Source: Desulfotignum sp.
GTDB lineage: Bacteria > Desulfobacterota > Desulfobacteria > Desulfobacterales > Desulfobacteraceae
Direction of reading: 5' to 3'
NCBI GenBank assembly: GCA_021737695.1
Contig: JAIPDL010000036.1
Coordinates: forward strand, 1-35,801
Length of the DNA: 35,801 bases
Position 1 is the stretch's first letter; every line of letters begins with the position of its first letter. Made by a program: the position numbers and the translations under genes. The notes beneath the pieces are model-generated. The model saw only the letters and a list, made by a program, of their open reading frames with translations, ran no database searches and was not told the origin of the DNA. Of the stretch, positions 10,952 to 33,040 are shown one piece after another.

Positions 10952-11980
10952 ATGCGCCGTTTTCCAGACACCCTGATCAACATCATTGAAAAAAGTGACC
11001 AGAACATCAACCAGATCAGCAAAATATCCGGAATCTCCAACACCTATCTGACCAAACTGCTCAAACACAAAATCAATCATCCGGGCAAGGACAAGATCGC
11101 TTCCGTGCTGCTGGCCCTGAACTTCACCATCACGGATATCAACGATGTCCTGGCAGGCTATGACTACCAGCCGCTCAATCACCATGATATCCCCCAAATT
11201 CTGAAAAACAACCGGAAGCGCCGGTTTGAGGGGCGCATCGTCCCCCATTACGATTATATTTATTTTGAACTGGTCATGGCGGCCTTAGAAGCCCTGGGCG
11301 GTACCAAGATCATCATCAAGGAACGGCCCAGCGGTATCTTCATTCCCATGGACCTGTACATGATGAAAGAGTTTCCCATTGAATCCGACGACCAGGCAGC
11401 CAGATTCTTCATGACATTTACCCATGATGTGGTCGCGGAACGTAAAGCGCTGTTTCTGAAAAACTGCCGCAAAGGACACCGGTTTGAAACCTATATCTGC
11501 CAGGGATGCCTGGAGGAAAGTTTGAAAAACAACATCGGCACGGATGCCCGGAAATCCGACCCCGCCCGGGCAGACCTGTTTGCCCGGTATTTTGCCAATG
11601 CCGTATCCGCTTTTTTAAAGTTTCCCGACCAGCACCTGCACAGAGTGGTAAAGCGGTGCACCTATTTTCAATTCCAGATCCAGGATGCCGAAGGAAATAA
11701 CCCCAAAGTCAGCTTTACCTCGGACCGGCGGCACTATTTTCACAATGAATGGGAACAGCTCAGCATCGAGGGGTTTTTGTCCAATGCCCCGGGCATCACG
11801 GATCTGTTTTTCCATGAGGTGGAAAAATGCCGGATGGCGGCAAGGCATACTGATGACATAAACACCCCTGAAGGATTCCATGACTATATCCGGTCCCTGT
11901 TTGCCTCCCACGGCATGGGCCCGGCATTTGACCAGGCCCTGTCACAACTCATGGAAAAGCCGGGTTTAACTTTTTTTTAA
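10952..11980 (+). CDS. HTH (XRE-like) transcriptional regulator with a long effector domain
   Basis: About 342 residues. The first 60 residues form a XRE-like helix-turn-helix (NINQISKISGISNTYLTKLL), and a domain of about 270 residues that I do not recognise follows, with scattered Cys and His (a KNCRKG...YICQGC segment near 170-190). The ATG at 10952 is preferred; an in-frame TTG at 10940 would sit only two bases after GAGGA. The gene lies between two ABC importer operons, divergent from one and upstream of the other (about 70 bp), so it probably controls one or both. A small GGTTTAA/TTAAACC repeat with a T8 run covers its stop. Confidence 0.75.
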   Translation: MRRFPDTLINIIEKSDQNINQISKISGISNTYLTKLLKHKINHPGKDKIASVLLALNFTITDINDVLAGYDYQPLNHHDIPQILKNNRKRRFEGRIVPHYDYIYFELVMAALEALGGTKIIIKERPSGIFIPMDLYMMKEFPIESDDQAARFFMTFTHDVVAERKALFLKNCRKGHRFETYICQGCLEESLKNNIGTDARKSDPARADLFARYFANAVSAFLKFPDQHLHRVVKRCTYFQFQIQDAEGNNPKVSFTSDRRHYFHNEWEQLSIEGFLSNAPGITDLFFHEVEKCRMAARHTDDINTPEGFHDYIRSLFASHGMGPAFDQALSQLMEKPGLTFF

Positions 11981-12051
11981 ACCATGTTGTATTTTTTTAT
12001 TGACCCTTTGTCCGGATGTATGCTAACCATTTTTTAATACCAACCTTCTGC

Positions 12052-13071
12052 ATGGGAACCGCCGTGGACAAAAACAGTTCAGAACCCGTTCTTTCCATAG
12101 ACAACCTGAAAACCCATTTTTTTTCTCGAAAAGGGGTGGCACGGGCTGTGGACGGGGTATCCTTTGACCTGACCCCGGGAGAGGTCACCGGCATTGTGGG
12201 GGAATCCGGATGCGGGAAAAGCGTCACCGCCCTGTCCGTCATGGGGCTGGTGCCCAACCCGCCGGGACGGGTGGTGGACGGCCGCATTCTCTTTCATGGA
12301 AAAAACCTGCTGGACCTGGACATCACAGCGTTGCGGAAAATCCGCGGGGCCGGCATTGCCATGATTTTCCAGGAACCCATGTCCTCACTGAATCCCGTGT
12401 ACACCATCGGCAACCAGATTTCAGAAATGTTCCGGCTCCACAAGGGATATGACAAAAAACAGGCCCTGGCCGCCGCTGTTGACATGCTGGAGCGGGTCCA
12501 GATCCCCTCCCCCCACAAACGCGTCAATGAATACCCCCACCAGCTGTCCGGGGGCATGCGCCAGCGGGCCATGATCGCCATGGCCATGTCCTGTGATCCG
12601 GAAATCCTGATTGCGGACGAACCCACCACGGCCCTGGATGTGACGGTTCAGGCACAGATCCTGGACTTGATGCACCGGCTCAAGGATGATTTTTCCACGG
12701 CCATCCAGCTCATCACCCATGATCTGGGGGTGATCGCGGAAATGGCGGACCAGGTGGTGGTGATGTATGCCGGCCAGGTGGTGGAACAGGCCCGCACCCG
12801 GGAACTTTTCCAGCACACCCTTCACCCCTACACCCGGGGCCTTCTGGCCTCCATTCCCGTGCTGGGGCACCGCACCCGGGGAATGGATGAAGATCTGGTG
12901 GAAATAAAGGGCATGATCCCCAGCCTCCATGACCTGCCGGCCGGCTGCCGTTTCAGCAACCGGTGCCCGGAAGTTATGGACACATGCAAAACCCGTCTTC
13001 CTGACCTGACAGACATGGGCAGCGGGCACCAGGTCAGGTGCTGGCTGCACACAAAAGGGGGCTCCGCATGA
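12052..13071 (+). CDS. dppD: Dipeptide/oligopeptide ABC transporter ATPase (DppD/OppD type)
   Basis: About 340 residues. ABC ATPase with Walker A GESGCGKS, Q-loop IFQEPMSSLNP, signature LSGGMRQR, Walker B ILIADEP and the H-loop (ITHDLG). The C-terminal oligopeptide-transporter domain has the CRFSNRCP cysteine motif. It energises peptide uptake with its DppF-type partner. An earlier ATG (12016), a GTG (12064) and this ATG are all possible starts; none has a strong ribosome site. It is the first gene of a complete importer operon, and its stop overlaps the next start (ATGA at 13068-13071). Confidence 0.9.
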   Translation: MGTAVDKNSSEPVLSIDNLKTHFFSRKGVARAVDGVSFDLTPGEVTGIVGESGCGKSVTALSVMGLVPNPPGRVVDGRILFHGKNLLDLDITALRKIRGAGIAMIFQEPMSSLNPVYTIGNQISEMFRLHKGYDKKQALAAAVDMLERVQIPSPHKRVNEYPHQLSGGMRQRAMIAMAMSCDPEILIADEPTTALDVTVQAQILDLMHRLKDDFSTAIQLITHDLGVIAEMADQVVVMYAGQVVEQARTRELFQHTLHPYTRGLLASIPVLGHRTRGMDEDLVEIKGMIPSLHDLPAGCRFSNRCPEVMDTCKTRLPDLTDMGSGHQVRCWLHTKGGSA

Positions 13072-14105
13072 CAACGCCGCTGGCTGCCGTCACCGACCTG
13101 AAAGTGCATTTTCCCATAAAAAAGGGCATTTTGGCCAGGACCGTGGGATATGTATATGCGGTGGACGGCATCAGCTTTGAGATCATGCCCGGAGAAACCG
13201 TCGGCATCGTGGGAGAATCAGGCTGCGGCAAAACCACGGCCGGCATGGCCATGGTACGGCTCACCCCCATCACTTCCGGGTCCGTGCACTGGAAAGGCAC
13301 GGATATGGCAGCCATGAACCGGTCCGGCCTGCGGGCCCTGCGCAGAGAAATGCAGCTGATATTCCAGGACCCCTACTCCTCTTTAAACCCCAGGATGACG
13401 GTGCGGCAGATCCTGTCTGATCCCATGGATGTCCATGATAGGTTCACGGGCCGGCAGAGAAAAGCGCGCATCGATTTTCTGCTGGATACTGTCGGGCTTT
13501 CCCCGGGCCAGGCAGATCTGTATCCCCATGAATTTTCCGGGGGCCAGCGGCAGCGCATCGGCATTGCCAGGGCTTTGGCGCTGGATCCCACCCTGATCAT
13601 CGGAGATGAACCCGTATCTGCCCTGGATGTCTCCATCCAGGCCCAGATCATCAATCTGCTCAAACGCCTGAAACGCGATTTCAACCTGTCTTTGATCATC
13701 ATCTCCCATGACCTGGCAGTAGTGGAATACATCTGCGACCGCATCATTGTGATGTACCTGGGCAAAATTGTCGAAGCCGCTGATTACGCTTCATTGTACA
13801 AAGACCCGAAACACCCCTATACAAAGACCCTGATGTCCGCCATTCCCGTGCCGGACCCTGCCCGCCGTACCCGGCGGATCATTTTAAAAGGGGATGTGCC
13901 CTCCCCCATAAATCCGCCCGGCGGATGCCGGTTTCATACCCGGTGCCCGGACCGCATGGACATCTGCGACAAACAGGAACCGGCCATGCAGCGGTTCAGT
14001 GACGGTCACACCGCTGCCTGCCACCTGTATAACAACACAGATGCCGATCTTAGTCATGCAACCCCAACCCATGTGTCAACCCCAACCAAAGGAGACAACC
14101 CATGA
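13068..14105 (+). CDS. dppF: Dipeptide/oligopeptide ABC transporter ATPase (DppF/OppF type)
   Basis: 345 residues. Walker A GESGCGKT, Q-loop IFQDPYSSLNP, signature FSGGQRQR, Walker B LIIGDEP and H-loop (IISHDLA) are intact. The C-terminal oligopeptide domain carries CRFHTRCP. The DppF features (FPIKKG, LNPRMTV near the Q-loop) distinguish it from its DppD partner. The start at 13068 is fixed by the ATGA overlap and AGGGGG upstream. Its stop overlaps the binding-protein start (ATGA at 14102-14105), so three genes are translationally coupled. Confidence 0.92.
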   Translation: MTTPLAAVTDLKVHFPIKKGILARTVGYVYAVDGISFEIMPGETVGIVGESGCGKTTAGMAMVRLTPITSGSVHWKGTDMAAMNRSGLRALRREMQLIFQDPYSSLNPRMTVRQILSDPMDVHDRFTGRQRKARIDFLLDTVGLSPGQADLYPHEFSGGQRQRIGIARALALDPTLIIGDEPVSALDVSIQAQIINLLKRLKRDFNLSLIIISHDLAVVEYICDRIIVMYLGKIVEAADYASLYKDPKHPYTKTLMSAIPVPDPARRTRRIILKGDVPSPINPPGGCRFHTRCPDRMDICDKQEPAMQRFSDGHTAACHLYNNTDADLSHATPTHVSTPTKGDNP

Positions 14106-15619
14106 AACACAAACTTGTCACACTCATTATCGCCGCCATGCTGGCGATGCCCGGCCTGGCCCTGGCAAAATCAGACCTGGTGATTGCCGTGGACTCCCCG
14201 CCCAAGAGCATGAACCCCCACAGCTACAACTCCGATGCCAATTTGTCCTACATGGCCAATTTTTTTGACGGCCTGCTCCAGCGGCCGGCGCCTGAAGGCA
14301 ACCTGGCCCCGGCCCTGGCCTTGGAATGGTCCCGCAAGGATGCCTTGACCTGGGAGTTTAAACTCAGAAAAGGGGTAAAGTTTCACAACGGCAACCCGTT
14401 TACGGCTGAAGACGTCAAATTCACCTTTGAGCGCATGAAAGATCCGGAGTTCTCAAAATTTTTGAACATTGCCAATTCCATTGCATCCATTGAAACACCC
14501 GATGATTTCACCGTGATTTTCACAACCGAAAAACCCGTGCCCTGGTTTGCGGAAACCATGCACCAGAATTTTATCGTGGACAAGGAATCCTCCCTGGAAA
14601 GGGATTCAGGCGATTACAATACCAAACCCATCGGCACCGGAGCCTATCAGTTTGTGGAATGGGTCAAAGGGTCTTACATCAAGATGGAAGCCAACCCGGA
14701 CTACTGGGAAGGGGCGCCTGTGTTTAAAACCGTTGAGATCAAACCCATAACCGAAGATGCCACCCGGTTTGCCGCCATTGCCACCCGCCAGGCCCATATC
14801 TTAAGCGGCGTGCCCATTCCCATGATCGACCAGATCAAGAAAAATCCCGCCATTGAGGTGGTTTCCAGACCTGCCCGCCGGGCCATCTACATGGACATCG
14901 GCAACAAACCCGGCACCCCGTTTGCCGATGTCCGGGTGAGAAAAGCCATTGCCATGGCCATCAATGAAGATGAAATCGTGTCCACGGTGATGCGGGGCCA
15001 GGCCACTCCGGCGGCCCAGGTACCGGATACGGCCACCATCGGGTATGACCCGGAGCTGAAACGGCTGCCCTATGACCCTGAAACAGCCAAAGCCCTGCTC
15101 AAGGAAGCCGGTTATGAAAACGGATTTGAGATCACCATTGCCGGCCCCAACGACCGGTATGTCAATGACAAACAGATCTGTGAAGCCGTTGCCAGGTACC
15201 TGGCCAGAATCGGCCTTGACGTGACCCTGGATGTCAAACCCAAATCCATTTTCTTTGATGAACTGTCTTCCAACAAACACGATTTTTATCTGATCGGATG
15301 GATGGACGGGTCCTATGACTTTGGCCGTTCCGCCCAGCTTTTGCTCCACACCGTGGATCCGGACAAGGGCATGGGGGTTTACAACGGGGCCATGTATTCT
15401 GATCCCAAGCTGGATGAAATGATTGCCGCCTCCAGCGCCATCCTGGACAGGGATGAAAGACGGGCCGCCCTCCAGGCCATCAATAAAAAATCTGTTGAAG
15501 ATATCGCCTGGATACCTCTGCACTATCAGCAGGATGTGTATGCCGTGTCCAAGGCAGCCAATGTTGTCTTCACCCCCCGGCCCGACATGTGGATCGTGGC
15601 CAAGGAGATCAAGAGGTAA
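14102..15619 (+). CDS. dppA: Periplasmic peptide-binding protein of the Dpp-type importer
   Basis: 505 residues, SBP_bac_5 family, with a signal peptide cleaved after ALA (about residue 22). The family signature LRKGVKFHNGNPFTAEDVKFTFERM is visible in pieces at about 95-120. It delivers peptides, or in some members nickel, opines or haem, to the DppBC channel. An AAGGAG ribosome site and an ATGA overlap with dppF fix the start. A GC-rich hairpin follows between this gene and the permeases. Binding specificity cannot be read from sequence alone; the M20 peptidase at the end of the operon fits a peptide or N-acyl-amino-acid ligand. Confidence 0.9.
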   Translation: MKHKLVTLIIAAMLAMPGLALAKSDLVIAVDSPPKSMNPHSYNSDANLSYMANFFDGLLQRPAPEGNLAPALALEWSRKDALTWEFKLRKGVKFHNGNPFTAEDVKFTFERMKDPEFSKFLNIANSIASIETPDDFTVIFTTEKPVPWFAETMHQNFIVDKESSLERDSGDYNTKPIGTGAYQFVEWVKGSYIKMEANPDYWEGAPVFKTVEIKPITEDATRFAAIATRQAHILSGVPIPMIDQIKKNPAIEVVSRPARRAIYMDIGNKPGTPFADVRVRKAIAMAINEDEIVSTVMRGQATPAAQVPDTATIGYDPELKRLPYDPETAKALLKEAGYENGFEITIAGPNDRYVNDKQICEAVARYLARIGLDVTLDVKPKSIFFDELSSNKHDFYLIGWMDGSYDFGRSAQLLLHTVDPDKGMGVYNGAMYSDPKLDEMIAASSAILDRDERRAALQAINKKSVEDIAWIPLHYQQDVYAVSKAANVVFTPRPDMWIVAKEIKR

Positions 15620-20076: not shown

Positions 20077-21399
20077 ATGGCAGAAGCGGTGATAAAACTG
20101 GGCAAAAAAAAGGCCCGAAGTTTGTTTATTGACAAGGTCAAGGAAATTCTGCCGGAAGGCGGAAATCTGAACGCCTGCCTGACCTGCGGCGCCTGTTCTT
20201 CAGGGTGCCCGGCCACAGGCTTGAGAGATATGGACCCGCGCAAATTTCTGCGCATGGCTGCCCTGGGCATGGACGAGGAAATTGCCGCCTCTGACTGGCC
20301 CTGGATGTGCACCATGTGCCAGCGGTGCATCTATGTCTGCCCCATGAAAATCGACATCCCCCAGCTGGTATTCAATGCCCGGGCTTTGCGGCCCCGGGAA
20401 GAACGGCCCAAAGGGATTCTGGGTTCCTGCGACATGGCATTGAAAAACGACACCACGTCTGCCATGGGCACCACGGAAGAGGACTTTGAATTCGTGGTCG
20501 AGGACGTTTTGGAGGAATACCGGGAGGCTCAGCCGGAATTTGCCGACATGGAAGCCCCTATTGACAAGGAAGGCGCGGAATTTTTCCTGAACCAGAACTC
20601 CCGGGAACCCGTGACCGAACCCGATGAACTGGTGCCGTTGTGGAAAATCCTGCACCTGGCCGGCGTCAACTGGACTTACGGCAGCAAAGGATGGGCCGGA
20701 GAAAACTACTGCATGTTCCTGGCCGATGACGATGCATGGAAGCATGTGACCAAAACCAGTGTGGATCAGGCCAACAAGCTGGGGGTTAAGACGTACCTCA
20801 ATACCGAGTGAGGGCACGTCACTTTCTCAGTCCGGGCCGGACTGAAAAAATTCAACCTGGAACATAAATTTCAAGTCAAAAATATTTATGAGTATTATGC
20901 CAAATGGATCCGCGAAGGCAAACTCAAGGTCAACTCCGACTGGAACAAGGACCTGAAAATCAAATTCACGGTCCAGGACCCCTGCCAGATCGTTCGCAAA
21001 AGCTATGGGGATCCCATAGCTGAAGACCTGCGGTTTGTGGTTAAATCCGTGGTGGGGGAAGAAAACTTCATCGACATGCAGCCCAACCGCTCCAACAACT
21101 ACTGCTGCGGCGGCGGCGGCGGATTCCTCCAGTCCGGGTTCAAGGATGAACGCCTGCAGTACGGCAAACTCAAAGACGACCAGATCAAAGCCACGGGTGC
21201 GGACTACTGCATCGCAGGATGCCACAACTGCCATGCCCAGATCCATGAACTGAGCGAGCATTATGGGGGAAATTACCCCGTGGTTCATTTGTGGACACTG
21301 ATTTGTCTGTCTCTGGGTATCCTGGGTCCCAATGAACGGGAATATCTTGGGGATGATTTAAAAGAAGTCAACGTATTCCACCCGGAAACCGCTATGTAA
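20077..21399 (+). CDS. Selenocysteine-containing HdrD-like (CCG-domain) Fe-S oxidoreductase
   Basis: One 440-residue protein if the in-frame TGA at 20809-20811 is read as selenocysteine (U245). Residues 1-100 hold two 4Fe-4S motifs (C34, C37, C40, C44 and C78, C81, C84, C88). The rest is a double CCG region: a first, degenerate half with C212, and a full second half with C303, C343-C344 (NYCCGGGGG) and C382, C385 (GCHNC). The TGA falls in NTE-U-GHVTF, where HdrD/DsrK-like relatives have an E-C-G-H cysteine. The frame stays open for 195 codons after the TGA, with key cysteines on both sides, and a SECIS-like hairpin follows. The family passes electrons to disulfides or between Fe-S partners. 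A strong terminator follows, so it is the last gene of its unit. A sequencing or true nonsense change is the alternative. Confidence 0.85.
20809..20849 (+). promoter_or_regulatory. Bacterial SECIS element (UGA plus hairpin)
   Basis: The UGA (20809-20811) is followed by TCAGTCC (20827-20833), loop GGGCC (20834-20838) and GGACTGA (20839-20845), a perfect 7-bp stem that extends by TTT/AAA after one mismatch. The loop begins 22 bases after the UGA and starts with GG. Both fit the published general bacterial SECIS rules (loop 16-37 nt from UGA, G among its first two bases). Confidence 0.78.
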
Positions 21400-21426: not shown

Positions 21427-21473
21427 AGGGGGGCCGGCAAAATTTTCAATATCTGCCGACCCCTCTTTTTTTA
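21427..21473 (+). terminator. Rho-independent terminator after the selenoprotein gene
   Basis: AGGGG...CGGCA pairs with TGCCG...CCCCT across a 14-base loop, with a small internal asymmetry, followed by CTTTTTTT. It lies 28 bp past the TAA stop and separates the selenoprotein from the dehydrogenase genes. Confidence 0.85.
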
Positions 21474-21493
21474 TAAAACCAGGAGCCGTTTGC

Positions 21494-21675
21494 ATGAAAA
21501 CGTTACATATCAACCCTGGTTTTCGCCGGACCGGCATGGTCTTTGTGGTATTTTTTGTCATGGGATTTTTTCAGCCGGCATTTGCCCAGACCGTGAAGCT
21601 CGGCCATGTGGCACCGCCATGACCCTGGTGTGGACCATTCTGATTCTGGCCCTGCCCCACTGGCTGCTGAAATAG
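21494..21675 (+). pseudogene. Deletion scar: start of a TRAP-type binding protein joined to the tail of a membrane protein
   Basis: An AGGAG site and an ATG (21494) begin a signal peptide (FFVMGFFQPAFA) followed by QTVKLGHVAPP, the typical mature start of a DctP-type TRAP solute-binding protein, but the frame stops at 21622. In another frame the sequence from about 21609 reads GTAMTLVWTILILALPHWLL-K-stop, which looks like the last membrane helix of a transporter. The simplest explanation is a deletion that fused the start of one transport gene to the end of another. Lactate- or organic-acid-uptake genes would fit the neighbouring dehydrogenase; that is inference. Confidence 0.6.
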
Positions 21676-21719
21676 ACAAAAGCCCCCATGAAACCGACAC
21701 CGACACAAAGGAGCGCCCA

Positions 21720-32498: not shown

Positions 32499-32960
32499 AT
32501 CCAGGCTGATCGTCCGGTACAATATGGCATCGACGTGAAGGTGCATTCCGTGTACATGTCCCAATATCAACTGGTGCCTTATAAGCGGATTGAAAAATAT
32601 TTTCAGGACCAGGTAAAGATTCTGATCAGTGCGGGGACGATTTTCAACTTTAACTATGATGTCTACCACAAACTGGAAGCCATATTTCAAACTCGACTGC
32701 CAGCATGACCTGTGTAACGCCCATCACTTAAGAGAGTTGGAAAGAGCCTGGAAACAGGATAAACAGGAATGGGCCAGAAACATGGGAGAGCTTTTGCTAC
32801 AGATCAATCAGGCGGTAGATGATGCCGGCGGACGACTGGAATCGGAAGAATCCCGGGAATTTCGACAAAAATACCGGGCTGTTTTCGTTCGATGGAAGGG
32901 GCTGCAATTTTCTGCAGGATCCGCAGCTACCTGTCTACATGCAAAAAACATAACAAGTAG
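32499..32960 (+). mobile_element. Degenerate IS66-family transposase fragment
   Basis: Three collinear pieces of an IS66 transposase lie in shifted frames. From 32499, frame 3 reads ADRPVQYGIDVKVHSVYMSQ through YHKLE, the zinc-finger-to-helix region. From about 32663 to 32906 another frame reads WKPYFKLDCQHDLCNAHHLR and onward to FRQKYR. From 32907 to 32960 the first frame resumes with IFCRIRSYLSTCKKHNK-stop, the usual C-terminus. The parts between, with most of the catalytic core, are deleted. The transposase is dead. Its downstream end abuts a truncated chemoreceptor gene. Confidence 0.85.
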
Positions 32961-32961
32961 G

Positions 32962-33040
32962 CTTGTAATTATTGAGCTGAATAGTTACGTTTTTTATACC
33001 TTCAAGTAAGGTTGTGATTTTCGAGCTGAATAGTTACGTT
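32962..33040 (+). repeat. 30-bp imperfect direct repeat at the IS66 end
   Basis: Two 30-bp units (32962-32991 and 33011-33040) match at 26 positions and share the identical 18-mer GAGCTGAATAGTTACGTT, spaced 49 bp apart. The second unit encodes the last residues of the truncated sensor on the opposite strand. It is probably a duplicated IS terminus. Confidence 0.65.

Follow-up and report, generated by a model that had tools for sequence, protein, structure and literature searches.

A selenocysteine-containing HdrD-like protein of Desulfotignum and its possible place in HdrA-MvhD/MetVF complexes

We analyzed a stretch of 35,801 nucleotides from Desulfotignum sp. (GenBank assembly GCA_021737695.1, contig JAIPDL010000036.1, positions 1 to 35,801; hereafter the window), which harbors at 20077–21399 a gene whose reading frame is interrupted by a TGA codon. 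Comparison with related genes strongly supports the reading of this TGA as selenocysteine (Sec), and the hairpin following it is, judging from its pairing and codon conservation, a selenocysteine insertion sequence (SECIS) element. The selenoprotein is real and belongs to an already known family, while our ideas about its partners and active site are leads. Taken as a whole, the best explanation, which we regard as quite probable, is a soluble, Sec-containing HdrC-HdrB fusion with a selenol site and with HdrA-MvhD/MetVF modules as partners. The features of the gene are the following:

20077–21399, forward strand: full coding sequence of 440 residues, with Sec at 245; an HdrC-HdrB fusion, soluble and HdrD-like, assigned to the UGH selenoprotein family
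20809–20811, forward strand: UGA codon, strongly supported as selenocysteine (U245) by the TGA and Cys codons of relatives
20827–20845, forward strand: putative bacterial SECIS hairpin, stem TCAGTCC/GGACTGA, loop GGGCC, judged by minimum free energy (MFE), covariation and frozen synonymous sites
20176–20340, forward strand: HdrC-like region with two 4Fe-4S motifs, C34/C37/C40/C44 and C78/C81/C84/C88, invariant in 50/50 aligned rows
20815–20817, forward strand: His247 of the E-U-G-H motif, aligned with EtfD His583, a noncubane cluster ligand in that protein
20983–21231, forward strand: C-terminal CCG domain (PF02754) with the cluster cysteines C303, C343, C344, C382 and C385, invariant in 50/50 aligned rows

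The frame comprises 244 codons, the TGA as codon 245, 195 further codons and a TAA at 21397–21399. This is the architecture described in the first-pass annotation, which had also listed the conserved cysteines C303, CC343-344, C382 and C385, all of them present. In addition, it had predicted that normal gene calling would split the gene, and the mechanical list of open reading frames (ORFs) indeed cuts it into pieces of 244 and 120 aa. Chance is an unlikely source of the open run of 195 codons after the TGA, which occurred in 11 of 20,000 first-order Markov sequences modelled on that stretch. When 108 distinct full-length Sec copies of at least 66% identity were compared with the window copy, they differed from it at codon positions 1, 2 and 3 at rates of 0.089, 0.044 and 0.436 after the TGA (codons 246–430), as compared to 0.148, 0.088 and 0.458 before it (codons 20–244). 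The sequence 3' of the TGA evolves as coding sequence, and purifying selection acts downstream of the codon.

Codon 245 was followed through two collections of loci. The first consisted of 121 BLASTP matches, five of which did not cover the position; the remaining 116 carried TGA in 112 cases (the window copy among them), TGC in three and TGT in one. Among the matches listed, at least 21 rows were counted by eye as stop-free, 15 of which were fetched together with five TGA-bearing rows, and these 15 paralogues uniformly encode TGC at 245 (15/15). When loci of the wider phylum were included, the 165 rows divided into 141 TGA, 23 TGC and 1 TGT; the loci of the two collections overlap in origin, so that match counts are not species counts. 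Relatives with as little as about 40% identity have the TGA at the same place, and the matches bearing it come from many independent assemblies, named isolates included. The closest named relatives in another collection are Desulfotignum metagenome-assembled genomes. By eye, the best match among those listed was stronger than 1e-150 in 100 of 116 genomes and weaker than 1e-86 in the other 16, indicating that a UGH-type gene is not found in every relative; at 1e-90, 29 of 198 genomes of the phylum had a match.

For protein comparison, we hand-picked 50 of 76 rows offered, with the window standing for locus L001; a smaller alignment contained 28 of those 50. The motif E244-C/U245-G246-H247 is invariant in all 50 proteins, including four DsrK/Tmc-like rows at 31–34% identity. 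Relatives thus carry either Cys or Sec where the first-pass annotation had proposed to look for Cys, and its statement that HdrD/DsrK-type proteins have E-C-G-H at this place holds for the DsrK/Tmc-like rows. Thirteen cysteines are likewise invariant in the same 50 rows, eight belonging to the 4Fe-4S motifs and five to the CCG motif. On a tree of the aligned rows, the Sec/Cys label needs five changes, a number as low being reached in 0 of 500 shuffles, and the Cys rows L169, L164 and L135 as well as a six-row group fall among Sec rows. Repeated loss of Sec would produce such a pattern, in a tree whose root and some forks are weak and which contains long branches.

The hairpin begins 16 bases after the UGA and has 7 bp and a GGGCC loop, exactly as first described; alternatively, it can be drawn with 8 bp and a GGC loop. 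The distance from the UGA to the 5-nt loop is 22 nt, and the MFE amounts to -11.0 kcal/mol. We applied by hand the bacterial SECIS model given in the available part of a 2026 review (PMC13188914), which specifies a stem of 4–16 bp, a loop of 3–9 nt, a G in the first two loop positions, a UGA-to-loop distance of 16–37 nt and an MFE of at most -7.5 kcal/mol, and the hairpin agrees with it on every count. Covariation was assessed on 63 of 114 distinct Sec segments, near-copies having been thinned. The G at the second loop position (G33) is invariant in 63/63, and across the eight drawn pairs 91.3% of cells are paired, compared to 80.8% in shuffles. Double-changed cells numbered 54 vs 20.5 in shuffled data (0/500), the covariation score was 0.311 vs 0.146 (0/500), and sliding the partner strand lowered stem pairing to 16–45%. 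Across the full set of 20 distinct Cys segments with at least 38% identity, pairing was 45.6% vs 46.5% after shuffling, and in the closest Cys paralogue, L135 (80% identical), the fold reaches just -1.7 kcal/mol. Counted among copies carrying the commonest residue, the codons under the stem are frozen (V252 GTC in 107/107, R253 CGG in 72/72, G255 GGA in 108/108, L256 CTG in 96/96), and those nearby are free, with four codons in use for V248 and three for T249. By these measures, the hairpin at 20827–20845 is the SECIS element and has decayed in the Cys paralogues, so that the proposed SECIS check is answered both by the published model and by the covarying stem.

The host genome (G000), a 4.2-Mb draft in 158 contigs that is 88% complete, encodes the Sec machinery. 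A tRNA-Sec (76.9 bits), to which ARAGORN assigned the anticodon tca, as well as SelA, SelB and SelD all score above their cut-offs; the four genes selA, selB, selC and selD, for which the first-pass annotation had suggested a search, are all present. The selD gene itself (L024, G000 C122, 12239–13165) contains one in-frame TGA, suggesting that selenophosphate synthetase is probably a selenoprotein. In-frame TGA codons also occur in four of nine MvhD/FlpD-type genes of G000 (L197, L198, L199 and L200), which suggests that several Hdr modules of the genome are probably selenoproteins as well.

The predicted model of the protein shows an HdrC part followed by an HdrB-like part with two CCG lobes, and its best structural match is EtfD (9ojn). 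The fold agrees with HdrB; the two complete CCG motifs of HdrB are not found: the C-terminal motif is complete in 50/50 rows, the N-terminal lobe keeps only U/C245 throughout, and its other ligands are missing in all 50, with C212 retained only in closer relatives. In the family profile, C245-G-H247-x aligns with EtfD C581-P-H583-C584 (numbering taken from the alignment). When the HdrB-, GlcF- and GlpC-like proteins of the genome were aligned separately, C245 fell on the first Cys of their C-x-x-C. As described in the available parts of the literature, each CCG lobe of HdrB binds one noncubane cluster, whose bridging Cys shifts on substrate binding. In EtfD, it is His583 of the N-terminal lobe that completes the C-terminal noncubane cluster, and the N-terminal cluster is ligated by Cys581 and Cys584, among others (PMC13083937, available part). 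From the alignment, H247 is likely a ligand of the C-terminal noncubane cluster. Given the invariant C-terminal ligands and the vacated N-terminal site, the C-terminal cluster should be present and U245 should stand alone at the N-terminal site. The earlier description of U245 as cluster-adjacent is supported by the alignment with EtfD.

The same likeness to EtfD could be read differently, with U245 ligating a cluster or having a structural role and the protein being a plain electron relay, the function assumed for EtfD. EtfD is, after all, the best structural match, and its CCG clusters are reported to be fully coordinated, with a non-catalytic D2 cluster and the aligned Cys581 acting as a ligand (PMC13083937, available part). 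The other D1 ligands of EtfD are, however, absent from the window protein and its relatives, leaving U245 without a cluster of its own unless the C-terminal one is within its reach, and the persistence of Sec in this many genomes points to selenol chemistry. A relay thus seems unlikely to us, if still deserving some weight. EtfD, with which FadF/DgcB-type proteins are grouped in our comparison, further differs in the published description available: it is membrane-bound, and its N-terminal lobe retains a linear 3Fe-4S cluster.

An enzyme of the DsrK/TmcB type offers a second way to understand the site. Here U245 and the noncubane cluster would form or reduce the disulfide or trisulfide of DsrC, with electrons going to sulfite reduction instead of methylene-THF. 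TmcB (178.9 bits), HmcF (174.6 bits) and DsrK (123.7 bits) are the best NCBIfam neighbours of the window protein, E-C-G-H is common to the DsrK/Tmc-like relatives, and HdrB, TmcB and similar CCG proteins are predicted partners of DsrC in the available part of PMC10553843. These three scores are nevertheless far under the equivalog cut-offs of 735, 750 and 400 bits, respectively, and by this standard the protein is not an equivalog of TmcB, HmcF or DsrK. Moreover, the genome contains separate DsrK/Tmc-like Cys copies (L003, L004), and the neighbours recurring at orthologous loci are hdrA/mvhD/metV/metF, a CGGC gene or an ORF of unknown function, no specific search for membrane partners having been made. 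We consider an action on DsrC doubtful.

Termination at the UGA, either as a genuine stop or as a regulated switch that confines the product to an HdrC-like protein of 244 residues under selenium shortage, appears very improbable. Sec-UGA codons are prone to termination under low selenium and the first half retains both 4Fe-4S motifs, but constraint on the second half equals or exceeds that on the first, unlike in a tail that is never made. Even in a draft assembly of this kind, a sequencing error or pseudogene in which a TGC or TGT has mutated to TGA is ruled out for practical purposes by the occurrence of the same TGA in so many independent assemblies and by the purifying selection downstream. 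A genome-wide sense reading of UGA was also rejected, as 25 ORFs of the window were regarded as genes and TGA is the stop codon of 14 of them.

The neighbours of the gene were counted at 81 loci with a close orthologue (the window plus 80), of which 43 have long flanks. On the same strand and within 6 kb, hdrA, mvhD, metV and metF accompany it at 20 of 81 loci (13 of the 43 with long flanks). In the cluster at L082, FlpD/MvhD, MTHFR and DUF5981/MetV score above Pfam cut-offs; HdrA2 reaches 742 bits vs an NCBIfam cut-off of 1100, its frame being shortened by a TGA of its own, and both hdrA and mvhD carry in-frame TGA codons at CxxU motifs. Elsewhere, a CGGC-domain gene lies at most 150 nt upstream on the same strand (14/81 loci, e.g. 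L079 4637–4978), a type of gene without a match in the window flanks, or a small ORF of about 120–180 aa lies just downstream (22/81 loci, e.g. L116 6433–6801), the tested copy of which had no Pfam or NCBIfam match.

The host genome has four metV matches. Contig C108 carries a Sec hdrD of its own (61% identical) with hdrL, Sec mvhD, metV and metF. Two further hdrA-mvhD-metV-metF clusters, L207 (G000 C116, 3789–9859) and L208 (G000 C102, 4181–10166), showed no HdrD-like match in the stretches read and no HdrB match among those listed there; an HdrC-like gene is present on C50. The C116 cluster begins with a second, shorter metF-like gene, and at L095, L096 and L114 an orthologue of 85–87% identity immediately precedes a set of genes arranged as on C116, namely short metF-like, hdrA, mvhD and metV. 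A third, broken-looking copy of the same family was noticed at L185 (G000 C40, 6294–6950), where an HdrC-like start adjoins part of a CCG end, the middle with the Sec site is missing, and a TGA and a TAA lie inside.

In the window itself, the gene stands alone and is followed by a further feature:

21427–21475, forward strand: inverted repeat with a T-run, likely terminator, recognized by eye; the mechanical scan did not flag it

With this likely terminator, the gene would be monocistronic in the window. A common operon with the downstream glcD/glcF-like genes was rejected, since those genes lie beyond the likely terminator; glcD-like genes are, in addition, near just 7 of 81 loci, the window included. 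Downstream of the gene, 21494–21680 holds what resembles by eye the remains of a TRAP-type transporter operon, with a DctP-like signal sequence start running into the apparent end of another gene; at this place, the relative L186 has longer open frames (11419–14208). Farther on, an ORF at 32629–33009 resembles by eye a piece of what we take to be an IS66-type transposase.

Combining these data, we propose that UGA245 would be decoded as Sec by SelB and tRNA-Sec under the guidance of the hairpin, as the conservation of the codon and the covariation of the stem suggest. Electrons would pass via a pair of cubane 4Fe-4S clusters and a single noncubane cluster housed in the C-terminal CCG lobe, a path suggested by the invariant ligands and the fold. 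The N-terminal lobe has lost its own cluster ligands, leaving U245 at that site and H247 at the place of the cluster-ligating His. The most likely role of U245, which we give about an even chance, would be that of a selenol beside the noncubane cluster, with electron exchange between it and a partner protein that offers a thiol/disulfide or a cluster; it is the sole residue at the vacated site, within an invariant E-U/C-G-H and next to H247. As partners, we have in mind HdrA-MvhD modules, above all those of the MetV-MetF methylene-tetrahydrofolate (THF) reductase, an assignment falling slightly short of an even chance and based on the orthologues inside such clusters and on the two clusters of the genome that lack hdrD. 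The simplest reading is that the orphan gene may supply the HdrBC part in trans to clusters without hdrD. Only tentatively would we join all of this in one picture, in which a catalytic Sec245 at the place of the N-terminal cluster of HdrB faces a single noncubane cluster completed by His247, and this mixed site, supplied in trans by the window gene, forms the HdrBC module of selenoprotein-rich HdrA-MvhD-MetVF complexes in sulfate reducers.

Several observations weigh against parts of this proposal. Two of five covariation measures were no better than shuffles, with five pairs showing a double change (74/500 shuffles) and ten further pair types (307/500). A profile comparison with an HdrB of the genome left the N-terminal lobe unaligned, so the correspondence between U245 and HdrB is not secure, and the structural model holds no clusters. 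Seven of the 43 long-flank loci, the window included, are without the recurrent same-strand neighbours, although at L107 and L131, which belong to these seven, the opposite strand carries hdrA, mvhD and a metF-like gene. It is orthologues on which the proposed role is based; the window gene itself stands alone, and the Sec paralogue on C108 already occupies a MetVF cluster of the genome. Finally, the CGGC gene or the ORF of unknown function beside other loci indicates that MetVF is not the sole context.

Literature was compared in the parts available of PMC13188914, PMC9312934, PMC1794560, PMC5109826, PMC2702500, PMC8318568, PMC1088965, PMC2398784, PMC9430772, PMC13083937, PMC5736913, PMC4046663 and PMC10553843. 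In these, an Fe-S oxidoreductase-like selenoprotein (GlpC/COG0247, PTHR43551) is listed in 2006 and in later reviews, its motif being printed as UGH in PMC13188914, and hdrD4 of Desulfobacterium autotrophicum HRM2 is listed as a selenoprotein in 2009 (PMC2702500). The first-pass reading of a Sec electron-transfer protein is sustained by the position-245, SECIS, sel-gene and EtfD-alignment results, yet the family was already known. The window protein carries U-G-H within an Fe-S oxidoreductase and shares with the family, as far as the published text goes, the Sec of that motif in Deltaproteobacteria; the published gene is placed near Sec hdrA and frhD/mvhD. The assignment follows the printed motif of the family, whose reference protein is WP_174406253.1. 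In contrast to the published operon glpC-hdrA-frhD-frhG-frhA, the window gene is alone and its orthologues join hdrA-mvhD-metV-metF. For HdrD4 and other Hdr selenoproteins of D. autotrophicum, the available account likewise reports a soluble HdrCB fusion with Sec, from the same bacterial family.

DsrK, TmcB and HmcF resemble the window protein as its nearest NCBIfam families, the aligned DsrK/Tmc-like copies sharing its single complete CCG site, but differ by Cys in place of Sec in the four copies aligned, besides the low scores. The HdrB/HdrC of HdrABC-MvhAGD (5odc) and the Hdr-type MetVF complexes have the same domains and, in orthologous loci, the same partners; HdrB of 5odc differs in holding two noncubane clusters and in being a separate protein from HdrC. 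The published text available describes such Hdr-type MetVF complexes from Moorella and Sporomusa and predicts them in sulfate reducers, and hdrC is fused to hdrB in a marine Chloroflexi cluster of the MetVF type. Within the parts compared, which include few subscription papers, we found no statement placing a Sec-HdrD in methylene-THF reductase clusters and no account of the Sec site in terms of the EtfD structure; the word 'selenocysteine' is absent from the main text of the D. phosphitoxidans genome paper.

Calling the UGA as a stop leaves a truncated protein and an orphan half, and an electron-transfer enzyme widespread in Desulfobacterales is thereby easily missed. An invariant site adjacent to a cluster has kept its Sec, and several branches contain Cys forms whose hairpin has decayed, so that the family offers matched Sec/Cys pairs for probing the role of a selenol beside a noncubane cluster. 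The data further suggest a possible route by which HdrA-MvhD modules are connected with methylene-THF reductase in sulfate reducers.
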